Source: a virus
DNA: 47,924 nucleotides
IMG/VR virus record: IMGVR_UViG_3300047557_001921
Coordinates: 1-47,924 of that record
Reading direction: 5' to 3' (one strand)
In this document: in pieces, positions 4,001-35,150 of the stretch
How the letters are laid out: every line of letters begins with the position of its first letter
Numbering within the stretch: the stretch's first letter is position 1
Notes under the pieces: generated by a model
What the model saw: the letters and a program-made list of their open reading frames with translations, nothing else
Told to the model about the DNA's origin: nothing
Database searches by the model: none
Translations under genes and position numbers: made by a program

Positions 4001-7000
4001 CTGGTATCGTTACAGAAGTGGCGGCTATCGTCCGTACTCAGCCTGCTCATATTAGGGCTATCTGGAAAGAAGCCTTAGCAGATTCAAAGGGGCCTAATTC
4101 CTACGGAAGGTGTGTTAAAGAAACAAAGCTGCCGTACGTGAGTCGCCTTAACATTGACTACCTGAGGCAGTTTGCGAAGCACTGTGCTCAAAGAACAGAC
4201 CAAATAGGGAAACTATTCCGTACGAGGCTGTCCCAAAAATACGATGAATTTTTCGGTATGGCCGACAAATTTTGGGTAAGGCCACTAGGGCGTAAAGAGG
4301 GGTCCTACCGAGACGTTTATGACTTGAGTGTGCCTGGACCTCATGACTACGTTGTTAATGGCATGATGTCCCACAATACGATGTTGGTTCTGACCAACGT
4401 GCTCAAGGAGCTCAAGCAAGGTCATTGCAAGCGCCCTATCATCCTGTGCCCCGGCCACTTGGTTCAAGGCTACATCAAGGATGCCGTGTATTTCACGGAA
4501 GGTAAGGTCAACATGATCCCGATTACTGCGTACTCCATTCGCCAGAATGGTTACGAGCGTATTCAGGAGATGATCAAGCGGGCGCCGCCTAACACTATCT
4601 TCGTCAGCGACTACGACTTCCTGAAACGCAGCAAGGAGCGGATCGCCTACGGCGTGCGCCCTGTGTTCGTGTTCCGTAACGTCGAGTTCCTGCGCCAGTT
4701 CAAGTTCGACTTGGTTGCCGCAGACGAGAGCCACTACCTCAAGAACGACTCGACTCGTTCGGAAGCAGCTCAGCGATTCATGGCTGAAATCCCTCGCAAG
4801 CGTCTGTGTTCGGGTACTATCGTTACCGATACTCCTATGGACATTGTGGCGCAAGCCTCCATTATGGATCCCTCCATATTCGGTTCGCGCGGAGACTTTG
4901 CCACAGACTACGCCCAGGAGATGAAGGGCGAGAAGGTTATGGTCTGGAAGGAAGGAGCAGGCCGCAACATTCGTGCTCAGCTGCAAGAGCATGTAGTGTG
5001 GGTGGACTGTCGGCGTAAAGAGTGGGCCACCTTGCTCCCTGATCCGGACGAGACTTTCCACGCGGTTGACCTGACGCCTAACCAGATGGCCTGCTACCAG
5101 TCGTTGCTGGAAAAGACCATGGACGACATCAAGAATGCAGCGGCGAAAGATCCGAAGCTGAAAGCGGCCTTGGATGCGGCGGAGGACGAGAACGTATTTG
5201 ACTCGCTGGCCGCCCTGTTGAAGCCTTACTTGTCTCGCCTTGAAAGTTTCTTGGCTGCGCCTGCCAAGGACAAGTTAGGTCAAGAGCTTCTGACTGAACC
5301 GTCGGATCGCATGAGTCCTAAGGTAGCGAAGATCATCGATCTGTGTCGCACTCACCTTAGCACAGGTATCAAGGGCAAGATCTTGATCTTCACCAACCAC
5401 ATTGCTGTGGCTGAGGAGATCTACAACTCTTTCCCGCCCGATCTCAAGAAGCAGGCTATTCACTACATTGCAGCAGAGAAGCTGGAGTGCGGTGCAGCGT
5501 TCGAGGGTGATGATCGCAAGACCATTATGGTAGGCGTAGAAAAATCCATGAACACGGGACTTAACCTGCAGTTTGCCAGCCGACTGATTCGGATCGAGAC
5601 GGTTTGGACCCCAGGCGAAATGGAGCAAGGTAACTCGCGTATCAATCGTCCTGAGCTCAAGAAGGAGGACGTTCGCGACAAGATCTACTTAGACTGGATC
5701 GTCTGTAACAAGACCTTCGACATCACTAAGGTGTCGCGCCTTGTATCCAAGATGATCCAGAAGGCCAAGTTCGATGAGCCGCACAACCCAGAGTTCCAGG
5801 CACTGACGGAACCTCCGATGATGGCGATGACGCTGAACAACATCATCGCGCAGAATGACTTTGCCCAGGAGCTGGCTCCTTATCTGGAGGCCTACCAGGA
5901 CTACAAGCAGGTCCTGTACACGGACTACAGGAACTACAGAGAAGAGCACAAGGACGAAATGGATCCTACTCTCTGGGTGCGTTCGGAGAACCTGCCTGGA
6001 TCTAAGCTGATGGCCCGTACACCGTACATTCCTGACATGGCCTTGTATGGCTCTGATCAGCTAGGTCTGCTGCGGTACGACGAGTACATGCGGATTGACC
6101 CGGACGACCTCGAGACCGAAGATGAAGGTGAGGACGAAGGAGACGACGAGGACGAGGCCGAGGACAATTCGTCGCGCGGTTCTGCCCAACGCCAGGCTAA
6201 CAGAGCAGAGCTGGCTAAGGTGGAGGGCTTAGGCGTTCACACGGAGTTCGGCGACGGCACCATCATCGGTTGCGGCAAGATTCGCCTCAAGATTCGGTTG
6301 GCGAACGGCGACGTTGTCCGTCCCCGGAAGCTGGCTTGCTACGTTATCACTCGCCGTGACACTTCGACTAAGGATATCCGCAAGCAGCTCTTGAAGATGT
6401 CTGGGGACATTCCGATCGACACGCCTATCGATGTGCCTGCCACTTCGATCAAATCTGGGTCACGCAGGGATCGCAAGGCTGTAGAGGATACCGAACCACC
6501 GGTTACCACTTCGGTGCAGGTGGAACTGTACCTCACTATCGTGAACGACTTCCTAGCCCTGGGTGTTCAGGACACGGAAGACCAGACCGCAGTAGGCGCC
6601 TTGTCCAAGTTCGGGTTCAGGCTTATCCCGGAGCACTACACCGCTCTTATCCGGACGCCGCAAGCCTTGTTGAAGCTCTACAAGGCATGGTCTGTCGCAG
6701 GCCTCAAGATGTACCGTGGTCCTACGATGCGCGCCAAGGAATTGTACGAGAAGGTGAAGAACAAGTCCAAGATGAACATTGTTGGCCTTGCTACCAAACT
6801 GTCTCTCCGCAACTTCCTCCTGATGGAGTACAAGGCATCCGGCGACACTAACGCTATTAAGCCTTACCCCATGCTTCGGGACGGCATGCTGTACGTTGGT
6901 CTGCCTAGGCGTAACCAAGCAGGTACGGCTGCGGCAATTCGAGTTGCGGTACCTACGGTGAAGTGGGTTGTGGCCGAGCCGGAAATGCTACGGTTCGTGG

Positions 7001-7146
7001 TTTCCAAGCAGGAGGTAGTCGAGGTCATCAAGTCCCTGATGGCTGCAGGTATCGAGGTCACCAATCTTGATGAACTCGGCAAAGTGTGGAAGAAGATTAG
7101 GGTCGTTCGGAATCCGGAAGCGGAAACCGAAGATTCCGACGAGTAA
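1054..7146 (+). CDS. SNF2-type superfamily 2 helicase, intein-containing precursor
   Basis: A 2030-residue precursor; removing the intein (residues 568-1108) leaves about 1489. A long N-terminal region (1-545) has no recognised motif. Walker A reads DAGGGK-T only after splicing. Motif Ia is near RPIILCPGHL, motif II is DESH (1224-1227), motif III is SGT (1253-1255). The second RecA-like domain has KILIFTNH and motif VI (QGNSRINRP, near 1525-1533), typical of SNF2 proteins. An acidic stretch near 1685-1710 precedes a C-terminal region of unknown role. The protein should use ATP to move on or remodel DNA or protein-DNA complexes; its target is unknown. AGGTGA lies before the ATG. It is far longer than most phage SNF2 proteins. 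Confidence 0.85.
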   Translation: MALRAVSTLHTPKEFKLSRDERLTGFLPLYEARYREHVSLVINSLVLQGFLPMARNDRFLAGVKRQVLNEVLTALVGDLRSRANKSILRPSSDPKKPGYDFEFELVPASTGMLLLTKKGQITFLSSCGIKMSMAEEDNYQEVDTVGLVLTGEDVRNNCVSLGPVLRNSLASSLKSMSVDSEGTITVTMHLTKREVEFMTSTPLIAVRPGNLYALLSLWVASTLGNTTRMPVASMSITHISKAVTAASAGKDVAARNKNNSIVVLEEGGLAYIPDVDQSAQYEQALHDYGIQEDGSYCFSPPKEAQTEYKIGQESTGKKLPINMPILTDWVNLKFAYSNTEGRLAVLDLDRSVKLRPTHVRRFLELNMTKGKGAAFLSKMALLLQVFGIKIAPTAEQLSQYNTSIADVNALVALPLVDYVAKIGSLTVNLRLSEELSVEDDLKLTLIREDSVVAPFRAVAEAFKQLQAAIEGNFDKAYRAVSVLSFIELFAGLRLINAYAKDFDKVVQIDVDQRSVYIKQGVDPEHTPEPLPFMRKGSFMLPHQKKTENLMRGNPAFAIYSIDAGGGKCLTGENVVATKQGLLTLDEMRLMSGSCAGDKGFRSAEFDIVSSWGMQKTDSTYQRKGKTVRVKFSDGTIVEGLPDHRFWAYKYSEGFQYVRLDKLTADHLIEKKIGLGLFGTKTDLTEYRRKAASSLTSKAKTNFDNLGNSVPRHLTEDLARVLGYLVAEGYTPLDTEGRNLAVFHNKDSDVLKDYSDSLSALFGENSYRIKAGSKGLTSVEISDKATRTFIRSLLTLGTSSFKEVPLCVRQAPREIQTAFLSSLFEGDGTIYWKSMGVGKEDSKHATLAYTTISWRLALQAKVMLENLGIPATIKSRKGYLSSNGTDGTVTERRPYEVCVNYRYQDKFAEIGFRSSRKKAALAAAIDLLEDSLSNEDNRNIESRGSWNKLNLRREYLDLLEETADLISECNIEITTAPQVRHYDSGIVTEVAAIVRTQPAHIRAIWKEALADSKGPNSYGRCVKETKLPYVSRLNIDYLRQFAKHCAQRTDQIGKLFRTRLSQKYDEFFGMADKFWVRPLGRKEGSYRDVYDLSVPGPHDYVVNGMMSHNTMLVLTNVLKELKQGHCKRPIILCPGHLVQGYIKDAVYFTEGKVNMIPITAYSIRQNGYERIQEMIKRAPPNTIFVSDYDFLKRSKERIAYGVRPVFVFRNVEFLRQFKFDLVAADESHYLKNDSTRSEAAQRFMAEIPRKRLCSGTIVTDTPMDIVAQASIMDPSIFGSRGDFATDYAQEMKGEKVMVWKEGAGRNIRAQLQEHVVWVDCRRKEWATLLPDPDETFHAVDLTPNQMACYQSLLEKTMDDIKNAAAKDPKLKAALDAAEDENVFDSLAALLKPYLSRLESFLAAPAKDKLGQELLTEPSDRMSPKVAKIIDLCRTHLSTGIKGKILIFTNHIAVAEEIYNSFPPDLKKQAIHYIAAEKLECGAAFEGDDRKTIMVGVEKSMNTGLNLQFASRLIRIETVWTPGEMEQGNSRINRPELKKEDVRDKIYLDWIVCNKTFDITKVSRLVSKMIQKAKFDEPHNPEFQALTEPPMMAMTLNNIIAQNDFAQELAPYLEAYQDYKQVLYTDYRNYREEHKDEMDPTLWVRSENLPGSKLMARTPYIPDMALYGSDQLGLLRYDEYMRIDPDDLETEDEGEDEGDDEDEAEDNSSRGSAQRQANRAELAKVEGLGVHTEFGDGTIIGCGKIRLKIRLANGDVVRPRKLACYVITRRDTSTKDIRKQLLKMSGDIPIDTPIDVPATSIKSGSRRDRKAVEDTEPPVTTSVQVELYLTIVNDFLALGVQDTEDQTAVGALSKFGFRLIPEHYTALIRTPQALLKLYKAWSVAGLKMYRGPTMRAKELYEKVKNKSKMNIVGLATKLSLRNFLLMEYKASGDTNAIKPYPMLRDGMLYVGLPRRNQAGTAAAIRVAVPTVKWVVAEPEMLRFVVSKQEVVEVIKSLMAAGIEVTNLDELGKVWKKIRVVRNPEAETEDSDE
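2755..4377 (+). mobile_element. Intein with LAGLIDADG homing endonuclease, in the helicase Walker A motif
   Basis: A 541-residue in-frame insertion beginning with Cys568 (CLTGENVVATKQGLL) and ending VVNGMMSHN (N1108), followed by Thr as the +1 extein residue. The endonuclease motifs are LGYLVAEGY and LSSLFEGDG, the two LAGLIDADG helices. Excision joins GGGK to TMLVLT and restores the ATP-binding loop, so the helicase should be inactive until spliced. Codons are more AT-rich (many tta, ata, aaa) than in flanking exteins, consistent with later acquisition. Intein calling is firm; endonuclease activity is inferred. Confidence 0.92.
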
Positions 7147-8278: not shown

Positions 8279-11179
8279 ATGTTTAATTCCAAATACTCTG
8301 TCCCTGTTAAATCCCGCAAGGACGACTTCGAGTTGACGCTGCCAGTTGACCGCAACTGGTACTCGGAAGACAGCCGTCTGCTTATCGTGCTGGAGTCGGT
8401 AGACGGCACTGACCTAAAGGCTGGCCGGCTACTGGCGGATCGTAGTAAGGTGGTGGTAGAGAACCTCTTGAACTTTGCGGCACAGCAAGCAGCCCTGATA
8501 GATGAGGGCTGCAAGCTGCCTGCTCTTGCGGCCATCAACTTCAACAATGCCCGCACGTTTCATCTGCAAACAGAGACGGAGAAGGTTCCTTACCACACAC
8601 GATTCGTTAGGCGGATATACGCCGCTATCAAGAAACTCAAGCCTACGCACCTGCTAATCTGCGGTGACGGGGCGATGCACCACCTATTCCCAGACGTGGC
8701 GAACAGCCAGTGGAAACGAGGCTGGGTACACAGGCTGACAGTAGGCGACCTTAAGCTTAAGGTTGTGTCGACGCTAGACCTAGAGCCCTTGTACGTACCT
8801 AAGCGTACCCTCAAGGAAGAGGATGACGATGGTGGCGACAACGAATTCGAGCGCGACGACTTCGGTAAGTGCAACCTTCTAGGCTACGTCATCAGGAACA
8901 TCTCGCACTGCCTGCTAGGTCGGCACCCTTTCTCTTTGCGAAAGGTTGTGCCTAAGCCCCACTACATCAACACCATTGAGAAGTTTGACCGCTTCTACGC
9001 CAAGCTAAAGACCTCAGCTTTGGTTGCCACGGATACGGAGACCAAGAATCTTTCGGCTACCAAGAATGCTATCTTCACCATTCAGTTCGCCTTTACGAAA
9101 GACGAAGGCTACGTAATTCCTCTGCACCATCCTCAGACGCCGTTCTCTTCGGAAGAGGTTCAGTACATCAGTAAGAAACTGGCTCGATGGTTCATTGCCG
9201 AGCCTGAGGATCACTTCATAGGCCTGTTGGCCTTCAACGGCAAGTTTGACCTACGAGTGATTCGAGCCCAGTTCAAGCTGCCTATTATCCTGCGCCCTGT
9301 ATGGGAGATATCTTCTGGCGAACACGAGCTGGACGAGAACATCAAGTTCCTAGAGGACTTCGGTACGCCGAACGGCAACCTCAGAGCTACCTTCACCAGC
9401 TACAACAATGACCTGTACTGGACGATGCCTTTCTCCAAGGAAGAGCGCGCCACTATTGCGTTCGTGAACCCTGGCGACAAAGACTTCCTGGACTACGCGG
9501 TCCTGGACGTGCAGAGTTTGATCGGCATGAGGGAGATGCAGCTGGCTAAGGCCAAGCTGATGCGGTTAGGTAACAAGTCCTTCTTGCCGTTTTACCGTAG
9601 TTTGGTGCTCCAGCAGATGAGCAACACGGTGCACACTATCTCGCACATGGAGCAACGAGGTGTGTTCATCGACGGCTACTACCTCGCGCACCTAAAGTCC
9701 AAGGGTTCCCCTCTAGTACAGTCCATAGCAGAGACTAAGCGCGAACTGTTCGCTATGCCTAGTGTGGTCAAGGCGAACCAACTGCTACTGCAAAAGAACG
9801 ATTCAGTATCCTACGCCAAAGGCGGCTTGTTCAACGCCTCTAGTTGGGTACTGAACCTGAACAAGCCCGAACACAAGATCGTGATGTTCTTGGACGTGAT
9901 GAAGCTGGAGCCTCTCACGAAAACCAAGACAGGCCAGCCTCAGATAGACAAGAACTTCCAGAAGGCCTACGCAGACAAGCATCGTGAGGTGAAGCTGTTT
10001 GCTACGTACCAGGAGACCACTAAGCTCTGGGGTACGTATGTGAAGGGCTGGTACCAGAAGATTAAGGACAGCCCGGACGGATCGTTCGACGGCAGGCTGC
10101 GTCCTAGTTACGGATTCTTCCGCGTGGTAACAGGTCGCTTGAACTCTCAAGACCCGTCCCTGCAGCAGGTGCCTAGCCGAGGTGGTCTAGCCAAGTATGT
10201 GAAGCGGGCGTTCGTGGCACCACCCGGTACGTTGTATGTAAAGTATGACTACTCGGCACATGAGGTTAGGTTCTGGGGCATCATCGCTAAGGACGACGTT
10301 ATCGCAGATACGTTCAAGATGGGGCAATCCTTACGGCGCAAGTATCGAATACTGAGCCAACAGGTAAACCTCTCTAAAGCGGCGGATTACAAGAGACTTG
10401 TTGAAGAATGGTTTACGTATAACCCTAAGACAGGGGATTTGATATGGAAAAAGAAAACAGGAAGAAGCACAAGCTTAGGGTCACCTGCAGGGTCTAAGCG
10501 CGACGACGGCATTTATGTAAAAATCGAAGGCAAAGGATATATAGCCCATAGGCTAATCTTTGCGTATCTGTACGGGTGGTTACCGGACGAGGTCGATCAC
10601 AAAGATCGAGACAGGTTTAACAATTCCAAAGATAACCTGAGACCAGCCACTCGAGAGCAGAATGCCCAGAACCGAGGTAAAGAGTTAGGCAAGAATCCCG
10701 TATCCCGCTACAAAGGTGTTTTTAAACATTCTCAGAATGGTAACTGGGTAGCCCAGATAAGACCAGGCAAAGGACTGCGAGTAAAACACCTAGGAAGTTT
10801 CGACACGGAAGAGGAAGCTCACAAAGCCTACGTAAGGGCAGCTAAGAAGTACCATAAGCAATTTGCTAATGACGGTGTGATCTCTCTAGCTACAGGTGAG
10901 GTGGATTGTACCAATCCTTTAGAGCTCCTTCAAAAAGAGTTGCGTCAAAAGGGCGACGTCCATATCATCAACATTTACCACTTCTTCAAGAAGTGGGTCG
11001 ACAAGTCTCACCCTTTGCGTGACGCCATTAAGGCTGTGGTGTTCGGCACTATTTACCAGATGAGAGCAAGCTCGCTGGCTAAGAGTTTGAGGAAGCAGCG
11101 AGTAGGAGAACTGGATGACAAGGTGCGTAAGATGCGTAAGCGTATTGCTGAGCTCAAAGCTGAGCTAGGAGTAGAGTGA
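8279..11179 (+). CDS. DNA polymerase family A, N-terminal part (3'-5' exonuclease, palm motif A, fingers motif B) with in-frame HNH-AP2 insertion
   Basis: 966 residues. The proofreading exonuclease shows DTET (D252, E254), LLAFNGKFD and YAVLDVQ, matching ExoI, II and III. Palm motif A is DYSAHEVR (D657, E662). Fingers motif B is RDAIKAVVFGTIYQ: R914, K918, F922 and Y926 match the O-helix, with Gln replacing the usual Gly after Tyr. Between motifs A and B lies an in-frame HNH-AP2 domain (about 691-870). The reading frame ends after motif B in a charged heptad-like helix (KVRKMRKRIAELKAEL). The C-terminal palm, with motif C, is in the next gene, joined by TGATG. The product therefore needs the second polypeptide to form an active polymerase. 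Confidence 0.9.
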   Translation: MFNSKYSVPVKSRKDDFELTLPVDRNWYSEDSRLLIVLESVDGTDLKAGRLLADRSKVVVENLLNFAAQQAALIDEGCKLPALAAINFNNARTFHLQTETEKVPYHTRFVRRIYAAIKKLKPTHLLICGDGAMHHLFPDVANSQWKRGWVHRLTVGDLKLKVVSTLDLEPLYVPKRTLKEEDDDGGDNEFERDDFGKCNLLGYVIRNISHCLLGRHPFSLRKVVPKPHYINTIEKFDRFYAKLKTSALVATDTETKNLSATKNAIFTIQFAFTKDEGYVIPLHHPQTPFSSEEVQYISKKLARWFIAEPEDHFIGLLAFNGKFDLRVIRAQFKLPIILRPVWEISSGEHELDENIKFLEDFGTPNGNLRATFTSYNNDLYWTMPFSKEERATIAFVNPGDKDFLDYAVLDVQSLIGMREMQLAKAKLMRLGNKSFLPFYRSLVLQQMSNTVHTISHMEQRGVFIDGYYLAHLKSKGSPLVQSIAETKRELFAMPSVVKANQLLLQKNDSVSYAKGGLFNASSWVLNLNKPEHKIVMFLDVMKLEPLTKTKTGQPQIDKNFQKAYADKHREVKLFATYQETTKLWGTYVKGWYQKIKDSPDGSFDGRLRPSYGFFRVVTGRLNSQDPSLQQVPSRGGLAKYVKRAFVAPPGTLYVKYDYSAHEVRFWGIIAKDDVIADTFKMGQSLRRKYRILSQQVNLSKAADYKRLVEEWFTYNPKTGDLIWKKKTGRSTSLGSPAGSKRDDGIYVKIEGKGYIAHRLIFAYLYGWLPDEVDHKDRDRFNNSKDNLRPATREQNAQNRGKELGKNPVSRYKGVFKHSQNGNWVAQIRPGKGLRVKHLGSFDTEEEAHKAYVRAAKKYHKQFANDGVISLATGEVDCTNPLELLQKELRQKGDVHIINIYHFFKKWVDKSHPLRDAIKAVVFGTIYQMRASSLAKSLRKQRVGELDDKVRKMRKRIAELKAELGVE
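10349..10888 (+). mobile_element. HNH-AP2 homing endonuclease-like insertion inside the polymerase gene (boundaries approximate)
   Basis: About 180 codons resemble phage HNH-AP2 endonucleases: FTYNPKTGDLIWKK and GYIAHRLIFAYLYGWLP, then the HNH core (VDHKDRDRFNNSKDNLRP), NAQNRG, and a C-terminal AP2 DNA-binding domain (SRYKGVFKHSQNGNWVAQI; HLGSFDTEEEAHKAY). The frame stays open from polymerase into the domain and out again. There is no Cys...His-Asn splicing signature, so it is not an intein, and too little non-coding sequence for a group I intron core. Exact edges cannot be set without an uninterrupted homolog; base composition shifts near 10346. Confidence 0.8.
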
Positions 11180-11994
11180 TGGCCGCCACCTTAGACAAGA
11201 AACGCAGAGCCGAGTTGACCGAAGAGCTAGCCAAGCTGAGAGCAGAGTTGCCCGCGGTCAAGGCTGAGCTGAAAGAGGCGCAAGAGCGGGACTGGAAGGT
11301 TTTCGCAGAAGACCTGATAGCGAAACTGTTTCATCGCTATGCCAAAGGCGCAGCGTGGCTAGACTGGGCCAAGAACTTTGCTGAGAAGAACGGGTACGTC
11401 TATGCGCCTACAGGACGTCGTCGCAATCTTCCTGGCGTAATGATCGGCAACAAATCCCTGGTGTCGGCACTGTTGCGGCGCGCGGTGAATTCACCTATTC
11501 AAGGTACAGCCTCTGACGTTACTGCGACGGCTGCTCGACTAACGGCCGTCCACTTCTACCGCTACCTACGCAAGTTCAAGATGCTAGAAGGCGTAGAGTT
11601 TCTGCCTGGTGAGGCACTGAAATTGGTGCATGACGCTACCTACGCGGAAGCCGCCTACGACCACATGCTGGCGTACCTGCACATCACGCAGTGGGTCGCA
11701 ACGTATGGCGTTACCGAATACTACGAGAAAGAGTTCGGCTTCAAATTCAACATCGAGCCTGAGATAGAGGTCGAGATCGGCGCCCAGGAAGACCACATGT
11801 ATAAGTGGGACTGGACGGACGAAGGCTTACGAAAGATAGTCCGTTCGTCCTTAGAAGACCAGGTCAAGATCAAGATGCTCAAGGAAGAAGATCTGGAAAG
11901 ATCCTTCAAACGCATATTCAGGATTTACCGTAACCCCGAGATCGCACAGTTTCTACGTACCAACTATCCTATCCTAGGAGTAGTAGATGAGTGA
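11179..11994 (+). CDS. DNA polymerase family A, C-terminal part (palm motif C)
   Basis: 271 residues from ATG 11179, which overlaps the preceding TGA by one base (TGATG); a GTG at 11176 is also possible. The N-terminus is a charged coiled-coil-like helix (KKRRAELTEELAKLRAEL). Then come YAPTGRRRNLPG, the conserved RRAVNSPIQGTASD, and palm motif C as VHDATY (D152); the Glu usual after Asp in VHDE is Ala here. This supplies the catalytic carboxylate missing from the first polypeptide. Reinitiation at TGATG suggests coupled translation. The frame is -1 relative to the first gene, but no slippery heptamer is visible at the join. Confidence 0.9.
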   Translation: MAATLDKKRRAELTEELAKLRAELPAVKAELKEAQERDWKVFAEDLIAKLFHRYAKGAAWLDWAKNFAEKNGYVYAPTGRRRNLPGVMIGNKSLVSALLRRAVNSPIQGTASDVTATAARLTAVHFYRYLRKFKMLEGVEFLPGEALKLVHDATYAEAAYDHMLAYLHITQWVATYGVTEYYEKEFGFKFNIEPEIEVEIGAQEDHMYKWDWTDEGLRKIVRSSLEDQVKIKMLKEEDLERSFKRIFRIYRNPEIAQFLRTNYPILGVVDE

Positions 11995-13863: not shown

Positions 13864-15345
13864 ATGGGCCTACGAGATTTCAAAACGAAAAAGAGCTTTG
13901 CTGACGCGAATGCTCGAGGCGGCCAGAGGCAGCCTGGGATGGGGGACTTGGTCGAAGTATTCAAGTTTCCTGACAAGAAGTGGATTACCTTGCGGTTCGT
14001 CGGGCCTCTTTGCTCGTACGGTAACCACTGGGTAGTCACCAAGAAGAAAGATGGCAGTCAGGGCAAGTTTCCTGCGCCTTGCTTGGCTTACGACTCTGCT
14101 ACTGAGAGTAGGGATGCCACTAAGGACTGCCCGTGGTGCAAGGAAGATCCGGAGATGGTTCAGTCCGGGTCAGACTATTTCACCAACGCCATCATCCGTT
14201 CGTTGCAAGAGAACGAGCCTCGGCGTAAGGCTAAGCCGACGGCAGAGGAGAGAAAGACGGGCTGGAAGGACAAGAATTCCGAGTCCTGGACTCCTGTCCG
14301 TGTAGTGAGGCTAACCGGCTCTGTTGTGCAAGAGCTCCAGCGGCTGAGTACGTTGAATCGCCACAAGGATAACAAGACCGGCGAGACGCGGACTTTCCCT
14401 ATCAGCCACATTACCAAAGGCGTCGACGTCAAGATCATGTACGACTCGACGGAGAAAACGCCTTCCAAGAAGTACACCATTCAGATACGCGAAACCCTTA
14501 CTCCTTTGTCTTCGGTGGAGAAAGAGTATCTGCTGTGGGACATCGAAGACCGCATCACCCTACCTAGTTTGTCAACCGTGATCAAGGAGCATGATATGTG
14601 GGCTACCCGCATGGGCCTCAAGAAGAAGCCGTCGTCCAAAGCAAAAGCTGGTAAAGAGAAGGACATCTTCGACGAAGACGAAGACTTCGACGAGGATGAC
14701 GAGGACGAGGAGGAGGATGACACTCCGAAGAAAAAGAAGGCCTCCAAGAAACCCGTCAAGAAGTCCAAGAAGCCCGTCGACGAAGACGAAGATGAGGACG
14801 AAGACGAGGATGAAGACGAGGATGAGGATGACGAGCCTCCTCGCAAGTCCAAGAAGAAGCCTGTAGCCAAGAAGAAGTCCAAGAAGCCCGTCGACGAAGA
14901 TGAGGACGAGGATGAAGATGAGGATGAAGATGAGGATGAAGATGAGGACGAGGATGAGGACGACGAGCCTCCTCGCAAGTCCAAGAAGAAGCCTGTAGCC
15001 AAGAAGAAGCCGGCTGCCAAGTCCAAGAAGAAGCCCGTCGACGAGGATGAAGACGACTTCGACGAAGACGAGGATGAAGACGAGGACGAGGATGAAGATG
15101 AGGACGACGAGCCTCCGAAGAAGTCCTCCAAGAAGAAGCCGGCTGCCAAGTCCAAGAAGAAGCCCGTCGACGAGGATGAAGACGACTTCGACGAAGACGA
15201 GGATGAAGACGAGGACGAGGATGAAGATGAGGACGAGGATGAGGACGAGGAAGAGGAAGACGAGGAGGATGACGAGCCTCCTCGTAAGAAGAAACCCGTC
15301 AAGAAGCCTGCAGCCAAGAAGCCTGTCAAGAAGTCCCGGCGGTAA
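13864..15345 (+). CDS. Putative ssDNA-binding protein with acidic/basic repeat tail
   Basis: 493 residues. Residues 1-260 form a globular part with a basic N-terminus (KTKKSFADANARGGQR) and four cysteines (C50, C73, C89, C92; CPWC) that could bind zinc as in T4 gp32-type proteins. Residues from about 265 on alternate Asp/Glu runs with Lys/Pro/Ala blocks (KKSKKPVDEDED) in at least four repeats, ending in a basic stretch. Acidic tails are typical of phage and bacterial ssDNA-binding proteins, where they recruit partners; this one is unusually long and ends basic. Neighbouring recombinase and polymerase genes support the call. Another ssDNA- or dsDNA-binding role is possible. Confidence 0.6.
   Translation: MGLRDFKTKKSFADANARGGQRQPGMGDLVEVFKFPDKKWITLRFVGPLCSYGNHWVVTKKKDGSQGKFPAPCLAYDSATESRDATKDCPWCKEDPEMVQSGSDYFTNAIIRSLQENEPRRKAKPTAEERKTGWKDKNSESWTPVRVVRLTGSVVQELQRLSTLNRHKDNKTGETRTFPISHITKGVDVKIMYDSTEKTPSKKYTIQIRETLTPLSSVEKEYLLWDIEDRITLPSLSTVIKEHDMWATRMGLKKKPSSKAKAGKEKDIFDEDEDFDEDDEDEEEDDTPKKKKASKKPVKKSKKPVDEDEDEDEDEDEDEDEDDEPPRKSKKKPVAKKKSKKPVDEDEDEDEDEDEDEDEDEDEDEDDEPPRKSKKKPVAKKKPAAKSKKKPVDEDEDDFDEDEDEDEDEDEDEDDEPPKKSSKKKPAAKSKKKPVDEDEDDFDEDEDEDEDEDEDEDEDEDEEEEDEEDDEPPRKKKPVKKPAAKKPVKKSRR
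14773..15290 (+). repeat. Tandem repeats encoding acidic/basic blocks
   Basis: Blocks beginning CCCGTCGACGA recur at 14773, 14887, 15034 and 15163, each running through GAC/GAG/GAT-rich DNA into a Lys-rich segment. The last two repeat units are 129 bases apart and nearly identical. Copy-number change by slippage or recombination would alter tail length without breaking the frame, since spacings are multiples of three (114, 147, 129). Confidence 0.85.
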
Positions 15346-15365
15346 GGCGTAACCGCTTCTCGCCC

Positions 15366-15395
15366 ACGGCGCCGCTTGCATAGGGCGCCGTTTTT
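15366..15395 (+). terminator. Rho-independent terminator after the SSB-like gene
   Basis: ACGGCGCC (15366-15373) pairs with GGCGCCGT (15384-15391) around a 10-base loop and is followed directly by a T-run (15391-15395). It lies 20 bases after the stop codon, and separates the SSB-like transcript from the RecA gene. Confidence 0.9.
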
Positions 15396-15423
15396 CATTT
15401 CATCTTAGCAAAAGGGTCCTGTA

Positions 15424-16071
15424 ATGGCACAGTCTGCTCGTAAGGCAAACCCTGGTAAGAAAAAAGCGGTTCAGGAGGCAGTCGAAGACGCCTTTAATCC
15501 GTATGGCAACATAACAACCGTACTCGACCTGATCGAGAAAGAACTGGACATATCGGATGGTGGCCTAGTGCCTAATGAAGCCCGAATGTCCACAGGATTA
15601 TTGTGCCTAGACATTGTGCTAGGCGGAGGTATCACCGCAGGTTGGTACACCAACTTCGGGCAAGAGCAGTCCTGTAAGACAACCTTAGCGGTCAACATTC
15701 TCTTCTCGGCTCTGTTCAGCCGAATCCCTATCCTGGCCTACTGGGACTTTGAAGGTTGCTTAACCAAAGACTCCACGTTACGTCTTGAAGGTAATGAGGA
15801 CGTTAGTTTTGACCAACTGGCAAAGACGTACTCCGATGGAGACTCGGTGTCAGGTATATTGACCGTCGGCGGTGCTTCCTCTACCGGGACCTTCCGGGTT
15901 ATCCCGGACAAACCTTTGCACAGCATCAGGCTAGAAGATGGTACCTGTTTTAGGGGGTATAAACACCCCTTTTTAGTATGGGACCCTCTCACCGAGGATG
16001 CAGAGTGGGTTCTACTAGAAAATCTTAAGGTCGGTATGACCTTACTACAGTCATCACCTCTTCCGGGGTAG
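15424..16071 (+). CDS. RecA/UvsX-type recombinase, N-terminal part fused to split-intein N half
   Basis: 215 residues. Residues 1-111 are RecA-like: ARMSTGLLCLDIVLGGG, a Walker A-like loop GQEQSCKTT with Cys where Gly is usual, and YWDFEG carrying the catalytic Glu region. At Cys112 the sequence changes to an intein N-terminal half (CLTKDSTLRLEG; later TCFRGYKHPFLV), which ends at the stop. The remainder of RecA lies downstream (17425), so full-length protein requires protein trans-splicing. The stop codon is inside a strong inverted repeat and the 3' end overlaps the opposite-strand endonuclease gene by 47 bases. An AGGG lies before the ATG. Confidence 0.9.
   Translation: MAQSARKANPGKKKAVQEAVEDAFNPYGNITTVLDLIEKELDISDGGLVPNEARMSTGLLCLDIVLGGGITAGWYTNFGQEQSCKTTLAVNILFSALFSRIPILAYWDFEGCLTKDSTLRLEGNEDVSFDQLAKTYSDGDSVSGILTVGGASSTGTFRVIPDKPLHSIRLEDGTCFRGYKHPFLVWDPLTEDAEWVLLENLKVGMTLLQSSPLPG
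15757..16068 (+). mobile_element. Split intein, N-terminal half
   Basis: 104 residues starting at Cys112 with intein block A (CLTKDSTLRLEG) and a block B-like stretch (IRLEDGTCFRGYKHPFLV) containing the His of the splicing centre. No endonuclease domain. The partner C half is encoded at 17425-17586. The insertion site, right after DFEG, is at the RecA Walker-type catalytic Glu region, where inteins favour conserved residues. Confidence 0.88.
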
Positions 16072-17389
16072 TTAATCTAACTACCCCGACCTTAGGCAGT
16101 TGAAGGTATATCACAAAATTGCTTACGGTCTTGAATGCGGCCTTGAATTTAGCTAGGTTCTTTTCAATAAGGCCTCTGTTGAAAGGGACTAGCCCCATGG
16201 TGTAGAAACTCTTCACTTCTGCAACTTCTGCCTTACCTATAGGTGACACGTACTTGATATCCGGGTAGTACCTACGAGAAACTCCTTGGTACTCATAGGG
16301 TATTGTGACTATCTCTCTAGTTTCGGTAGTGAGATCCGTAACCTTGTATTGACGTAAAAGTTTCTCCACTACTTCGGCTTCCAGCTGAGATCTAACATCG
16401 TACGTCTTTTTCTTTACCGTAACAGGACGGAGTTTGTACCGAGATGATAAGACCTTTTCCATAATGTCAGCTACGTGAGTAGGATAGGATGTGCGTACCT
16501 GGTATCGCCAGTAGTAGGTCTCCTCCATCTTCCTGATGTACCAATCTAGTTCTCTCATGTTAGTGGTGCCGTACCTTTTGATGTAGGTCTCTTTAGTTTT
16601 TCTCGCTAGGGCGGCTAGTCCCCTATCATAGGTACCGTACTCGTCCGTTAAGTTTCTTTTTCGAGATGCGACTGCTTTAGCGGCGATACTAGGCACTCTC
16701 ATTGCGTTACTCACATCTGTTTGATATCTAGCCTGCAAAGTCTTTATGCCTTTTAGGTGCCTACGAGCCCGTTCTTCTGTTGATACTTGTCCTGCGAGCT
16801 CCTTCACACTTTCCATCTTGAAAGGATTGTCTACTCCGTATTTCGCCAACCATGTCTCTTTCTTTTTCTGGAGTACGGCTTTGTTTCTAGATATATTGGT
16901 TACGCCGTACCTATCGACCAGAGTCTGCACACTTTTGCGTCTCACCTCATAACTTTGTTGAGGGAAATCTACCCCATAATTCCTGCGACAGGTTTGAATC
17001 TTCTTTTCTCTCGCCCCTTCGATGTGTGAAGGGTTGGTTACTCCGTACTTATCTAGTAAAGCTTTACGGATAGACTGCTTTACTTTAGGGTCTCGTAGGG
17101 AGCATCCTCTTTGAGCATACTGCGAGTATCGTTTGCCTACGAACAGAGTAGGTCTGCCACACCCGCAGCAACACAGGTGTTTATTGGGGTCCCTTAGAGT
17201 TAGCGCGTCGTAGGCAGCTTGAGCTAAAGGAGCTCCTTGGCGTAGTCTCTTCTTGAGAAGCTGTCTGTGTCTTCTATTAGGTAACTCTTGTATAGCCCTA
17301 ATGATACTTTTCAAGTAAAGCCGGCGGCCACCTCTGTAAATAGATTTAGGTAAAACCTTTTGTGCAACTGTGTTTAGATCAGTCTTCAT
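16025..17389 (-). CDS. Free-standing homing endonuclease, PD-(D/E)XK/Vsr-like, in the fractured RecA locus
   Basis: 454 residues, the only minus-strand gene in the window. A strong ribosome site (AGGAAGG) precedes the ATG. Features: a Cys cluster (CCCGCG, residues 73-78), then tandem modules with a KYGVTNP-type core (near 114, 138, 161, 183, 273), a repeat seen in phage homing endonucleases, and a C-terminal nuclease core YYPDIKYV...AEVKS (D377, E391, K393). It lies between the two RecA halves, an arrangement known as a fractured gene, where a stand-alone endonuclease spreads with a split intein. It should cut an intact recA allele near the insertion site; specificity is not shown by sequence. 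Codon use is AT-richer than in neighbours. Confidence 0.85.
   Translation of the reverse strand: MKTDLNTVAQKVLPKSIYRGGRRLYLKSIIRAIQELPNRRHRQLLKKRLRQGAPLAQAAYDALTLRDPNKHLCCCGCGRPTLFVGKRYSQYAQRGCSLRDPKVKQSIRKALLDKYGVTNPSHIEGAREKKIQTCRRNYGVDFPQQSYEVRRKSVQTLVDRYGVTNISRNKAVLQKKKETWLAKYGVDNPFKMESVKELAGQVSTEERARRHLKGIKTLQARYQTDVSNAMRVPSIAAKAVASRKRNLTDEYGTYDRGLAALARKTKETYIKRYGTTNMRELDWYIRKMEETYYWRYQVRTSYPTHVADIMEKVLSSRYKLRPVTVKKKTYDVRSQLEAEVVEKLLRQYKVTDLTTETREIVTIPYEYQGVSRRYYPDIKYVSPIGKAEVAEVKSFYTMGLVPFNRGLIEKNLAKFKAAFKTVSNFVIYLQLPKVGVVRLTTPEEVMTVVRSYRP
16026..16094. other. Nested inverted repeats at the fracture boundary
   Basis: Three overlapping pairings: TAAGGTC(16026-16032)/GACCTTA(16038-16044); GGGGTAGTTA(16065-16074)/TAACTACCCC(16078-16087), a perfect 10-base stem with a 3-base loop; and TAAGGTCGG(16026-16034)/CCGACCTTA(16086-16094). 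They contain the stop codons of both convergent genes (IntN and the endonuclease). No T-run follows on either strand. It may be a bidirectional transcription or RNA-stability signal, or a recombination scar. Confidence 0.7.
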
Positions 17390-17403
17390 TTCAACCTTCC
17401 TGT

Positions 17404-17415
17404 GATTAGCTAATC
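17404..17415. promoter_or_regulatory. 12-base palindrome between divergent genes
   Basis: GATTAGCTAATC is a perfect palindrome in the 35-base gap between the divergent endonuclease (minus) and the IntC-RecA gene (plus). It could be an operator or dimeric protein-binding site controlling one or both; no direct evidence. Confidence 0.45.
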
Positions 17416-17424
17416 GGAGTCCTT

Positions 17425-17586
17425 ATGAAATTACTGAAAGCGGATTTAGCCAAGCTAGGCTTAACCCCTATTGAAGTTGTAGCTAGTGCGCCCACAGGCA
17501 CACGGGAGACCGTTTACGATGTATCGTTGCCGGGGACGGAACTGGTGCCCCACAGCATTATCACTAATGGTATCGTCACTCACAAC
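17425..17586 (+). mobile_element. Split intein, C-terminal half
   Basis: 54 residues ending GIVTHN, with block F (ETVYDVSLPG) and block G (the penultimate His and terminal Asn). Followed by Ser, the +1 nucleophile. It matches the N half at 15757-16068; together they lack an endonuclease domain, which here is replaced by the separate minus-strand gene. Confidence 0.9.
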
Positions 17587-19815
17587 TCGGCAAGTCCTGA
17601 ATACTACGAAACGATCATGCGTAAGGTGACACGCAGATTGTTTACTAGCATCAGTGAAGTGTTCGGCGAAAAGGACAACAAAGGCCAGTGGGTTCACCCG
17701 CCCGTTATTCGCTATCGCTCTGAGGCTGTAGCCGAGAAGTTCTTCGACTTCCTGGCGTCGATCGAACGCAAGCTTCCAGACAAGAAACTACTCGGAGACC
17801 AGTGGTACTACGTCTACGAAGATACTAAACCTAACCGGGCCATCGTCAAGGACAAGTTCGACAAGTCTTATTTCTCCAAGACTGGCAAGTTGCGCGTACC
17901 TGCACCTGACGGCTCTTTGCAGGCCATTGTCCTGGTTGACTCGTACCCGGCGATGCTCCCAGAGAAGCAGGACGTCGACGATCCTAACAACGCTATCGCT
18001 ATGCAAGCCCGGATGTTCTCTGACCAGCTCAAGCGGGTTAAGGGCAGAATGCGCGGCAAGAGGATCGCGGTGTTCGGCATCAATCAGCTTAGGCTGAAAC
18101 CTATGGTCATGTTCGGCTGCCTGCACGGCTCCGCTCGGGTGGTCCTGGCTGACGGTAGTACGATGTTGATGGAAGACATCGTGCAAAACAAGATTAAAGG
18201 GCCGGTTATGTCGTACAACCCGGTCACTAAGAAAGTTGAGCCTAAAGCCATCAAGCGTTGGTTTAACAATGGCCACACAGATGATTGGCTTCAATTCAAG
18301 TTGGGGGGAGTAGACACCGCTAATGGACTAACCAGTCTTAGGTGTACCCCCAACCATTTGTTGATGAGTGGCAAAGGTAAACTCAAGAGGGCGAAGTCCT
18401 TTAAAGACGGCGACACCTTGATGTTAACCAGTTTGAAGCCTGCCTTAAATGAGGTTCAGCGCCAGGTAATACTAGGGTCTATTCTGGGCGACGGTTGGTT
18501 CAAGGTCAAGAACCGAGGTTTTGGTGTTAGAGGCGGTTTCGCTCACAAAGAGGCAGATTCCAGTTATGTGGAATACAAAGCCAACTTGCTGGGGTCTTAC
18601 GGACAACCCGCCTACGGGGGGAAAATGCTAACCGTAGAGACGTGCATGATGCACGAACCTTGGCTAACACAGATTGTAAAAACCGCAAAGGGGAAAGGGC
18701 GAAAGTACCATTTCTGCAAAGAGCTATTCGAGAAGATTGAGCCTTTAGGTCTAGCTATCTGGCTAATGGATGATGGCGCACGTTCAGGTAAACCTGGAGT
18801 AGGGACCTTGTCGTACAGCCTAGAGGACACTCGGAAAATATCTCGAGCATTGAACAGAAAGTTTGGCACCAAGTGCCGAGTCAAAGTTCATAGAGACAAA
18901 TATGCTCCTACAGGATATGGGTATGGGGTGCAGTTCTGTGAAAAAATGATGGCGTTGATAGCCCCGTATTTATATGAACCGTTCTACGAAGGGTTTACCA
19001 CTAAGCACAGAGATTTGCCGGGATTCGCCTCCGCTAAAGTAACGCCCTTGCCTCCAGGGGACAGATTTACTTATCCTGCGGTGATACGTTCTATCACTCC
19101 TGGGGCACCTACCCAGAGCGTTAATGGTCGGCTGATAGGTAATACCAAGTACGACCTAGAGATAGAAGGTAATCACTTGTACGTGGTTAACGGAGCCGTT
19201 GTCCATAATTCTCCGGAGTACGAGCCGGCCGGAGAAGCCCTCAAGCTCTATTCGGACGTGCGGCTCAAGTGCACCTCGCGGGCTATCTCTGCGGTGGATG
19301 GTGCTAAGGGCAAAGGTCAAATCGAACTGGAGCCGTCCTTGACTGGCGATGGCGATGACGAGTACCGCTATGTCCACATCAGGGCGCATAAGAACAAGCT
19401 GAGTGTGCCTTACCTAGAGTGCTTCCTGCGCTTGTGGATCAAAGACGTTGATGGTGTCGCTCAGGGTTTTGACCTGGTCTACGACACGTATGAGTACCTG
19501 CGGTCTACAGGTCAAGCCACAGGTAACCGTAAGGCCATCCACATCCACTTGCACGGTCAGGAGAAACCTTTCCGCAGGCCTCTTCCTTGGAGCGTCTTCA
19601 AGACTCTTATCTTAGGTGACAAGCCTAAGATCAAGTCCATCTTCACTAAGCTAGGGCTAAAGCCGATGATGCTGCGTACCTTCTGCGAAAAGCAAATGAA
19701 GTCCGGGAAAGGGTTGGACCTCTACTTTGCTCACCAGAAGGCTGCGAAGAAGGCGGCTATCGCCAAGAAGAAAGCTAACCCGGATGCGGACGACGAAGGC
19801 GGCAGTGAGGAGTAA
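17425..19815 (+). CDS. Split-intein C half fused to RecA/UvsX central and C-terminal parts, with a second intein
   Basis: 796 residues. Residues 1-54 are an intein C half (VYDVSLPGTELV...GIVTHN) followed by Ser55 as +1 extein. Residues 55-231 continue RecA (SPEYYETI; AIVLVDSYPAM; INQLRLKPMVMFG). A second intein occupies 232-595. Residues 596-796 resume with SPEYEPAGEALKLYSDVRL, matching the RecA motif after INQ-R-K-G-V-M-F-G, then a lysine-rich C-terminus. Extein total with the N part is about 489 residues, longer than E. coli RecA. The product should form filaments on ssDNA and drive strand exchange after one trans and one cis splice. A GGAG-like site precedes the ATG. Confidence 0.92.
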   Translation: MKLLKADLAKLGLTPIEVVASAPTGTRETVYDVSLPGTELVPHSIITNGIVTHNSASPEYYETIMRKVTRRLFTSISEVFGEKDNKGQWVHPPVIRYRSEAVAEKFFDFLASIERKLPDKKLLGDQWYYVYEDTKPNRAIVKDKFDKSYFSKTGKLRVPAPDGSLQAIVLVDSYPAMLPEKQDVDDPNNAIAMQARMFSDQLKRVKGRMRGKRIAVFGINQLRLKPMVMFGCLHGSARVVLADGSTMLMEDIVQNKIKGPVMSYNPVTKKVEPKAIKRWFNNGHTDDWLQFKLGGVDTANGLTSLRCTPNHLLMSGKGKLKRAKSFKDGDTLMLTSLKPALNEVQRQVILGSILGDGWFKVKNRGFGVRGGFAHKEADSSYVEYKANLLGSYGQPAYGGKMLTVETCMMHEPWLTQIVKTAKGKGRKYHFCKELFEKIEPLGLAIWLMDDGARSGKPGVGTLSYSLEDTRKISRALNRKFGTKCRVKVHRDKYAPTGYGYGVQFCEKMMALIAPYLYEPFYEGFTTKHRDLPGFASAKVTPLPPGDRFTYPAVIRSITPGAPTQSVNGRLIGNTKYDLEIEGNHLYVVNGAVVHNSPEYEPAGEALKLYSDVRLKCTSRAISAVDGAKGKGQIELEPSLTGDGDDEYRYVHIRAHKNKLSVPYLECFLRLWIKDVDGVAQGFDLVYDTYEYLRSTGQATGNRKAIHIHLHGQEKPFRRPLPWSVFKTLILGDKPKIKSIFTKLGLKPMMLRTFCEKQMKSGKGLDLYFAHQKAAKKAAIAKKKANPDADDEGGSEE
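18118..19209 (+). mobile_element. Second intein in RecA, LAGLIDADG type
   Basis: 364 residues from Cys232 (CLHGSARVVLADGSTMLMEDI) to N595 (YVVNGAVVHN), +1 Ser. LAGLIDADG-like motifs are ILGSILGDGW and LAIWLMDDGA. It interrupts MFG/SPE near the DNA-binding loop 2 region of RecA. Splicing restores GSPEYEPAGEAL. A contiguous cis-splicing intein in a gene also dependent on a trans-splicing one is rare. Confidence 0.93.
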
Positions 19816-19818
19816 CAC

Positions 19819-20847
19819 ATGCTGGAAGGCGTAGGTATCGGCGACCTCCATTTCGATAAGCTCAACAAGTTGTTTCCTAAAGCCGACGACCTTATCGTAG
19901 CCGAAGTAACGAAGGTTCTAGACTACGCGGTGGATCGTGGCGTGCGTAACGTGTTCTTCTACGGTGACGTAGGGGACACGGCTCGCATGTCCTATGAGGC
20001 TAACCTAGCCTTCTGGGACCTCCTGTTTCGGGATGACTACAGTGGCTTACTGTTTGACGTGATCTTAGGGAACCACGACTTCGATGAACACGGCCGACAC
20101 TCCTTAGAGCTGCTGTCCTGGGTACACCGTCACTTTGGTGGTGAGAGGAAGCTGCGAGTCCATACGCAGCCCTCGGTCATTACTATGGGCGGTGTACCTG
20201 TTCAGTTCCTCCCTTATCCTTATGTCAAGACTCGCGCCGACTGTCTTAACGTAGGTCACTTCGAGAGTTCAGGGTCCATCCGCGACAACGGCATGAGGAT
20301 ATCTAAAGGTGTTTCCACCAAGCACCTGTCTCTCGTAGGGCATCTACACACGCCACATAGTGTTAATAGACATTACTTCTCCGGTACCTTGTACCAAACC
20401 AACTTCGGTGAATCTCTGCCGAAGAAGTTTCACCATTTCAAGGTCGCATCTGACCTGACGCACAAGATAAAGATGGTCCCTAACGACCCGGACTTCAAGC
20501 TGATCAACTTGGAGATCTGGGGAACGAAAGACCTGAAAAAGATTAGCCCTAACCCTCTGCACCTCTACAAGGTCTACGTCCAAGAAGGAGTAATAATGGA
20601 CGAGAACTCCTTTGCCCCTTACCCTAACGTGGTGAAGATCATATTCTTCAAGACGAAAGGCGAGTTGAAAACCTTGTTGGAAGAGGAGTGGCGATCGGCA
20701 GAGTCGGTAACCAGCTTGTACCAGCCTAAGGCTGACCTGAAAGCCTTCCTTACCAAGCGACAAGTGGATGCGCCCTTGCGCCGTCGAGTGCTGGAGCTGC
20801 ACAAACAGATCTTTGAATCCAACCTGAGGAAACCAGATAATGGCTGA
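19819..20847 (+). CDS. Recombination nuclease subunit, SbcD/gp47-like
   Basis: 342 residues of the calcineurin-type metallophosphoesterase family: GDLHFDK (residues 8-14), YGDVGD, GNHDFDEH and GHLHTPH supply the metal-binding Asp/His/Asn residues. Like T4 gp47 or SbcD it should be the nuclease subunit that pairs with the gp46/SbcC-like ATPase at 21957, resecting DNA ends for the RecA-like protein encoded just before. A GAGGAG site lies at the end of the preceding gene. It overlaps the clamp-loader gene by 8 bases, which sits between the two nuclease subunits. Confidence 0.88.
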   Translation: MLEGVGIGDLHFDKLNKLFPKADDLIVAEVTKVLDYAVDRGVRNVFFYGDVGDTARMSYEANLAFWDLLFRDDYSGLLFDVILGNHDFDEHGRHSLELLSWVHRHFGGERKLRVHTQPSVITMGGVPVQFLPYPYVKTRADCLNVGHFESSGSIRDNGMRISKGVSTKHLSLVGHLHTPHSVNRHYFSGTLYQTNFGESLPKKFHHFKVASDLTHKIKMVPNDPDFKLINLEIWGTKDLKKISPNPLHLYKVYVQEGVIMDENSFAPYPNVVKIIFFKTKGELKTLLEEEWRSAESVTSLYQPKADLKAFLTKRQVDAPLRRRVLELHKQIFESNLRKPDNG

Positions 20848-34351: not shown

Positions 34352-35150
34352 AGAAAGGGCACCGTTTACTCTAAGCCCTAAAGGCCGTCGCGTAGGAGTA
34401 GGAGCCTCAGGACTAGCGACCTCCACCTTAGAGGTTCAGAGGCGAGATTTGGCTGACCGTAGCGAACCTGCCTACCTCAACGACTTCAATGAAGAGATAC
34501 GAATAGAGCAAGAGGCCGCTCGAGAAAGAAAATTCACCCTGGACGACCTGTCGCCTCGGGTTGTATCCTTACCTAAAGCACCTGTGGTGCAGGTGCAGCG
34601 CAAGAAGCGGCGCATCAAGGTAAAAGCTCTCACAGGCAAGAGCCGGCATACGTTCAGGATGATACGGTTTCAGGTAGCAGAAGATCCTGTCGTTAAGACG
34701 GCGCCTGTCAACAAAGACATCTTGGCCACTAGCCAGCGGCTCAAGAAGCCTTTTTTCCGCTCGTTGGATGCGAACCAGAAGGCCATCAGCAAGTACCTGA
34801 TTCAAGATTTGGCTCCCTTGATGCTACCGGCCATGTCCGCCATCGACGACGCCAAGGAAGTCCTCAGCGAGATAACTGACCTCGACATTGACACGCCTCT
34901 GTACGCTACCCTGACGAAGTTCCTTCGGCTGGGGGTAGAGGTGAAACTAGCTACCTGGGTATCCCGATACCTGGGTCTGTCTGCGGAAGAGACGCAGACG
35001 CTATTCCATAGACTGGAACCTAAAGATGACAAAAAACTCATGCCTGGGATGCAGCCTATTCACCAGATGCTTCGATCCCAAGAAGAAGGCCTCCTACTCC
35101 TGCAAAAAGTTCTCGCCGCTACGAAAAAAGCTCAGCAGAGCCGAAGCTGA
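34338..35150 (+). CDS. Hypothetical protein overlapping the terminase gene
   Basis: 270 residues starting within the DnaB-like gene's end (14-base overlap; GGAGG upstream). N-terminal half basic and disordered-looking (KKRRIKVKALTGKSRHTFRM), C-terminal half helical (LAPLMLPAMSAIDDAKEVLSEI; KLATWVSRYLGLSAEETQTLF). The last 125 bases overlap the start of the large terminase in another frame. It might be the small terminase or a packaging partner from its position, but no small-terminase motif is seen. Confidence 0.55.
   Translation: MKKSKERAPFTLSPKGRRVGVGASGLATSTLEVQRRDLADRSEPAYLNDFNEEIRIEQEAARERKFTLDDLSPRVVSLPKAPVVQVQRKKRRIKVKALTGKSRHTFRMIRFQVAEDPVVKTAPVNKDILATSQRLKKPFFRSLDANQKAISKYLIQDLAPLMLPAMSAIDDAKEVLSEITDLDIDTPLYATLTKFLRLGVEVKLATWVSRYLGLSAEETQTLFHRLEPKDDKKLMPGMQPIHQMLRSQEEGLLLLQKVLAATKKAQQSRS

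Follow-up and report, generated by a model that had tools for sequence, protein, structure and literature searches.

The window analysed here is the whole of the IMG/VR virus record IMGVR_UViG_3300047557_001921, a 47.9-kb metagenomic fragment of 47,924 bases, and its recA gene very probably carries a fractured-gene homing element, in which the halves are trans-spliced to an ordinary RecA and which spreads by a nuclease and repair. Sequence analysis confirms that recA is fractured by a predicted split intein, with the N-terminal intein half (IntN) closing one open reading frame (ORF) and the C-terminal half (IntC) opening another. The N gene (15424-16071, plus strand) encodes 111 amino acids (aa) of a RecA/UvsX-family extein ending ..AYWDFEG and 104 aa of IntN, whose first residues are CLTKDST. 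The C gene (17425-19815, plus strand) begins with 54 aa of IntC (...SIITNGIVTHN), after which the extein resumes at Ser+1. Between the two lies an intact 454-aa nuclease ORF on the minus strand (16025-17389). An earlier note on this DNA had placed the recA halves and the split intein at these positions, with a C half ending GIVTHN before Ser, and the ORFs, the seamless junction and the intein profile described below bear this out. The features of the locus are as follows.

15424..15756, plus strand: N-terminal RecA extein of 111 aa, which contains Walker A GQEQSCKTT and ends in the DFEG motif; phrog_97 (UvsX-like recombinase) at 1.1e-9.
15757..16071, plus strand: IntN, 104 aa and stop codon, with Cys1; block B is GYKH, not TxxH.
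16025..17389, minus strand: DUF7487 PD-(D/E)XK homing-endonuclease-like gene, 454 aa; PF24308 at 4.5e-33, phrog_3339 at 2e-19.
16064..16088, no strand: inverted repeat with perfect 11-base-pair (bp) arms and a 3-nucleotide loop, across the IntN stop codon.
17390..17424, no strand: head-to-head spacer of 35 bp, with Shine-Dalgarno (SD)-like sequences for both genes and the 12-bp palindrome GATTAGCTAATC.
17425..17586, plus strand: IntC, 54 aa, with block F VYDVSLPG and block G GIVTHN; TIGR01443.
17587..18117, plus strand: RecA extein 2, 177 aa, which starts at Ser+1 and holds Walker B; PF00154 at 5.9e-11.
18118..19209, plus strand: second LAGLIDADG intein, contiguous, 364 aa, at MVMFG|SPEYEP; PF03161, PF14890, TIGR01445 and TIGR01443.
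19210..19815, plus strand: RecA extein 3, 201 aa and stop codon, from alignment to phage RecAs.

When the intein halves are removed, the flanking sequences join to a seamless RecA reading ..DFEG|SASPEY.., and the joined exteins align with uninterrupted phage RecAs with zero gaps and zero surplus residues at D[FY]EG|S. This motif is present at the break point in all of the phage RecAs compared (13/13), so the comparison with uninterrupted recA genes that the earlier note had proposed returns an exactly matching junction. In NCTB, GR7B, GR11A and HRDY3, the separate tblastn matches of the two exteins abut exactly at the break point. The recombinase family match covers both exteins, with phrog_97 at 1.1e-9 on the N gene and 2.6e-20 on the C gene; PF00154 reaches 42.8 bits on the C gene and 16.9 on the N gene, the latter under the cut-off of 27. 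In an alignment by eye, the DFEG motif falls in the region of the catalytic Glu of RecA. The ORFs of the locus are intact and have SD-like sequences. The GC content and the GC content at third codon positions (GC3) of the nuclease gene and the intein are lower than those of neighbouring genes (GC3 is 0.46 for the nuclease and 0.65-0.69 for host genes). The first extein (15424-15756) has a GC3 of 0.56, intermediate between the values of the intein and of the remaining exteins (0.69), a pattern that exon co-conversion could perhaps leave.

The same architecture occurs in L002 (IMGVR_UViG_3300002026_000001), a 132.8-kb contig from another metagenome, where recA is split at the same site by an element that has an IntN, an IntC and a minus-strand nuclease of its own and lacks the second intein. 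The DFEG|S site is uninterrupted in L003, L005, L008 and L121, as well as in L010. In the extein tree, the RecA of L002 is sister to the uninterrupted RecA of L003 (support 100/99), yet in the intein tree the two RecA inteins, from L002 and from the window, group as one clade (support 98/96), giving a patchy distribution as expected for a mobile element. Loss of the element from L003 fits this pattern equally well. A plasmid search gave no match to the N-half gene. Uninterrupted recA genes with similar neighbours, namely an acidic-tailed SSB-like gene upstream and a phosphoesterase-like gene downstream, are found in L121 and L122. In the window, the SSB-like protein (13864-15345) has a very long, repetitive, acidic/lysine-rich tail, and similar tails occur upstream of recA in relatives.

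The assignment of the two flanking segments as intein halves is based on profiles and on catalytic residues. A profile of IntN and IntC from the window and L002 gave seven matches up to E 1 among PDB sequences, inteins only, with 1mi8, the Ssp DnaB intein, as the best (E=0.0013). The TIGR01443 intein_Cterm model is over its cut-off in both (16.3 bits vs 15.6 in the window). The residues of a class 1 intein, i.e. Cys1 (CLTK..), the block B His (GYKH), the terminal His-Asn (THN) and Ser+1, are present in both RecA elements, and the block F Asp is likewise kept in both, diverged as they are. The canonical block B TxxH is not matched, both inteins having GYKH, in which the His is retained and Gly replaces Thr. 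The missing Thr does not disqualify a class 1 split intein, since TxxH is common but not defining.

The nuclease belongs to Pfam DUF7487 (PF24308), with 115.4 bits against a gathering cut-off of 27 (4.5e-33), and matches phrog_3339, annotated as "homing endonuclease" (2e-19). Thus, the opposite-strand endonuclease gene that the earlier note had recognised between the halves, in a fractured-gene layout, is confirmed. Across 54 of 54 relatives, the invariant residues are E337, P376-D377, E391-V392-K393, T397 and K414, and no others. The TnsA-like family PF08722 matches 47 of 53 catalytic domains and Phage_endo_I (T7-type endonuclease I) 13 of the 53, and no Vsr model appears among the 25 families listed for these domains. 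AlphaFold (AF2) models have a predicted local distance difference test (pLDDT) score of 83.7 for the whole nuclease and 93.3 for the catalytic domain, and the top matches in a fold search are mostly PD-(D/E)XK enzymes (Cas4, Exo5, TnsA with a probability of 0.89-0.97, and Hjc), all with E >= 1e-3. Judged by its conserved residues and family matches, the nuclease is predicted to be a PD-(D/E)XK enzyme of the TnsA/T7-endonuclease-I-like kind and not a Vsr/EDxHD-like one. Therefore, of the earlier description "PD-(D/E)XK/Vsr-like", the first part stands on the invariant E..PD..EVK residues and the PF08722 matches, and the second falls. We infer the homing role of the nuclease from the gene context and the phrog_3339 annotation. 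A scan of genome contigs with a narrow pattern found no cellular homologues of the DUF7487 set, and no mention of DUF7487 was found in the literature searched.

According to the reading that we favour, the two recA half-genes would be translated separately, after which IntN and IntC would associate and join the exteins by class-1 trans-splicing through Cys1, the block B His, the terminal His-Asn and Ser+1. The second LAGLIDADG intein would excise itself in cis, yielding an ordinary full-length RecA of 489 aa. Meanwhile, the nuclease would cut recA alleles without the intein in co-infecting phages, close to the conserved codons for DFEG|S, and repair of the break by recombination would copy in the complete element of 1.83 kb. 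Thanks to the intein halves, the host phage would suffer no harm from the insertion, the invasion being neutralised by trans-splicing. Because the nuclease gene lies antisense at the position where an intein usually carries its endonuclease, the intein would work only as two pieces, which would explain the fracture.

Several observations weigh against this reading. With GYKH in block B, the rate of splicing could be unusual, and IntN by itself has no match to any curated intein model. The fold search with the nuclease gave zero PDB matches with E < 1e-3. In addition, the nucleases of the window and L002 are not clearly sisters in the approximately unbiased (AU) test (p 0.18), which neither favours nor rejects a separate origin of the two.

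DUF7487 nucleases recur in other fractured genes. At seven loci, such a gene lies antisense between split-intein halves: two recA genes (the window and L002), three UvsW-type helicases, one topoisomerase and one PolA. The helicase of Yersinia phage fHe-Yen9-02 (L027 1306-4403) is split inside its DE|CH box, and those of Dickeya phage JA33 (L029 1469-4575) and L061 (1384-4662) are split at TPKRKD|C; the type II topoisomerase is in L023 (462-3222) and the PolA in L073 (2829-7440). The records of fHe-Yen9-02 and JA33, both sequenced isolates, name no intein at the uvsW locus, and that of JA33 leaves the nuclease without annotation. Each of the seven nuclease ORFs has a tail-to-tail overlap with the IntN gene and begins approximately 0-105 bp from the IntC gene, head-to-head; the overlap is 47 bp in the window and 69 bp in JA33 (stop codon at L029 3505-3507). 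However, the antisense layout is not universal. In the terminase loci L063 and L064, the nuclease gene is frameshifted and shares the strand of the split gene, and in the split UvsX-like recombinases of L089 (3338-6275) and L100 (3325-6257) it is fused in frame before IntC, giving a nuclease-IntC-extein protein. In L086 (1998-5711), NrdA is split by an intein with its halves approximately 100 bp apart, and the DUF7487 nuclease follows the C half. Of the 80 viral DUF7487 loci retrieved, most lie outside fractured genes. Two further loci show other domain combinations. In L012 (1-5224), a terminase is fractured by a split intein, and the opposite-strand nucleases share the DUF7487 N-terminal repeat part and end in an EDxHD-like core, so that the same repeat region occurs on two catalytic types. 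In L018 (862-2415), a DUF7487 nuclease and an apparent RuvC-type resolvase domain share one open frame.

These loci might suggest that DUF7487 elements form a distinct antisense homing class, in which a backwards PD-(D/E)XK gene at the intein endonuclease site overlaps the IntN gene, convergent transcription tunes IntN and thereby the spliced recombinase, and recombination and homing are coupled. We consider this extension unlikely.

Lower still in probability is a gene left in pieces without splicing, whose RecA polypeptides would assemble non-covalently, with the intein halves as relics, as in the split NrdA of phage Aeh1. Phage genes split by homing endonucleases without splicing are established (PMC2988022), and the divergent block B of IntN would suit a relic. 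However, a relic would be expected to lose its catalytic residues, and two diverged elements have both retained Cys1, the block B His, the block F Asp, the terminal His-Asn and Ser+1. The break also lies in the RecA ATPase core beside DFEG, where unspliced intein tails would probably be hard to tolerate.

The earlier note had gone further and suggested that the element is wired to its own repair enzyme. In such a self-regulating element, RecA splicing would be conditional, depending e.g. on single-stranded DNA or on transcription that runs antisense across the overlap, and would control the recombinase needed for homing. There are precedents, as the intein of the P. horikoshii recombinase RadA splices in response to single-stranded DNA (PMC5790916) and homing of the T4 td intron requires RecA or UvsX (PMC2988022); in the window itself, the nuclease and IntN genes overlap in antisense, and a strong hairpin (z -3.5) spans the IntN stop. 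However, nucleases of this family, together with split inteins, are also found in broken genes for helicase, topoisomerase, polymerase, terminase and (next to the gene) NrdA, so a recombinase-specific logic is not needed, and closely related phages cope with an uninterrupted recA. The hairpin is found only in the window and is not conserved at the other fractured loci, and promoter searches for the C half and the nuclease gave no signal above shuffles. Thus, the suggestion finds no specific support, and we regard it as very improbable. The idea that such elements generally share a terminator or hairpin at the end of the IntN gene was dropped, this feature being specific to the window.

A group I or other RNA intron with an endonuclease, making the half-intein reading coincidental, has next to no probability. 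Phage introns with EDxHD endonucleases are known, and one reportedly resides in recA of phage 0305phi8-36. However, a search of 15300-19900 against Rfam found nothing up to E 0.5, the intein motifs lie on both sides exactly at the extein junction, and the nuclease is antisense to recA; with zero Rfam matches, a group I/II intron was rejected. Finally, an assembly artefact joining unrelated loci, which the earlier note had allowed for and which would be conceivable in a metagenomic fragment of this length, is ruled out for practical purposes by the same fractured recA at the same site in the independent contig L002, by the exact reading-frame junctions and by the similar neighbours of recA in L121 and L122.

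In addition to the split intein that is trans-spliced under the favoured reading, the C gene carries a contiguous LAGLIDADG intein that the earlier note had not mentioned (364 aa, 18118-19209; PF03161 at 7.7e-19 and PF14890 at 9.8e-9), in which the N- and C-terminal models TIGR01445 and TIGR01443 are both over cut-off. Thus, mature RecA would depend on two splicing events, one in trans and one in cis. The site of this intein, which we take to be that of the M. leprae RecA intein, is also occupied in L010, whose recA is uninterrupted at DFEG|S.

Fractured genes in the sense of Dassa et al. 2009 reportedly consist of a conserved DNA-metabolism gene in two ORFs, with a split intein at the break and a free-standing homing-type endonuclease between, mainly in phages; eight types of enzyme are said to be affected, with a Vsr-like EDxHD endonuclease at half of the loci. 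The layout of the window is the same; here, the nuclease is a DUF7487 PD-(D/E)XK enzyme and the host gene is recA, broken at DFEG|S. In three T4-like phages, Yersinia phage TG1 (KP202158; L125 2365-4943), and the Vibrio phages vB_VmeM-32 (L126 2377-4344) and EniLVp02 (L127 2311-4744), uvsX is in two genes with IntN and IntC at the break GGG|T(G) and a GIY-YIG nuclease, truncated in vB_VmeM-32, between them. These resemble the window in that a RecA-family recombinase is in two genes with split-intein halves at the break and a homing endonuclease between. They differ in that the break GGG|TG is nearer the C terminus, the GIY-YIG gene is on the same strand and the protein is a T4-type UvsX, whereas the window encodes a jumbo-phage RecA. 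The UvsX-like genes of L089 and L100 likewise combine a split intein with DUF7487; they differ in the same-strand in-frame fusion and in the site, NHxYM|[ST]. Lak phages also have a split UvsX-like gene. Given the published split-intein uvsX, fractured recombinase genes are not unprecedented, and T4 SegA cuts uvsX (PMC2988022). The earlier note was right that the recombinase itself is the target, and the novelty that it implied is weakened by both.

The mycobacterial RecA inteins (Mtu, Mle) also lie in the RecA ATPase, and the second intein of the window is of that general kind. They are contiguous and cis-splicing, and lie at sites other than DFEG|S. Mycobacterial RecA inteins at differing locations have been described (PMC5874633). 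I-Bth0305I is likewise a phage endonuclease with an extended DNA-binding part, and its motif is EDxHD (PMC3943268), in contrast to E..PD..EVK here.

As far as our searches show, a split intein in RecA at DFEG|S is new, and so are its combination with a second, contiguous intein and the association of DUF7487 with split inteins; recA is one of several DNA-metabolism targets of these elements. DUF7487, a Pfam family of unknown function, thereby gains a likely function as PD-(D/E)XK homing endonucleases recurrent in split-intein genes of large phages. The RecA split intein beside DFEG, with its unusual block B, may be a source of new trans-splicing tools, and the assembly of a recombinase via trans-splicing is directly testable.

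Other genes of the window are interrupted as well. PolA (8279-11994) contains an HNH+AP2 endonuclease inserted in frame, with neither intein motifs nor a credible Rfam intron match, and then breaks; the second ORF overlaps the first by 4 bp. The NAD-dependent ligase (41439-44349) is interrupted by a GIY-YIG ORF (42329-43390) that overlaps both halves, with no Rfam intron match. Two more genes hold contiguous LAGLIDADG inteins: an SNF2-type helicase (1054-7146), where Walker A is interrupted at GGGK|T, and the large terminase subunit (35026-38640).

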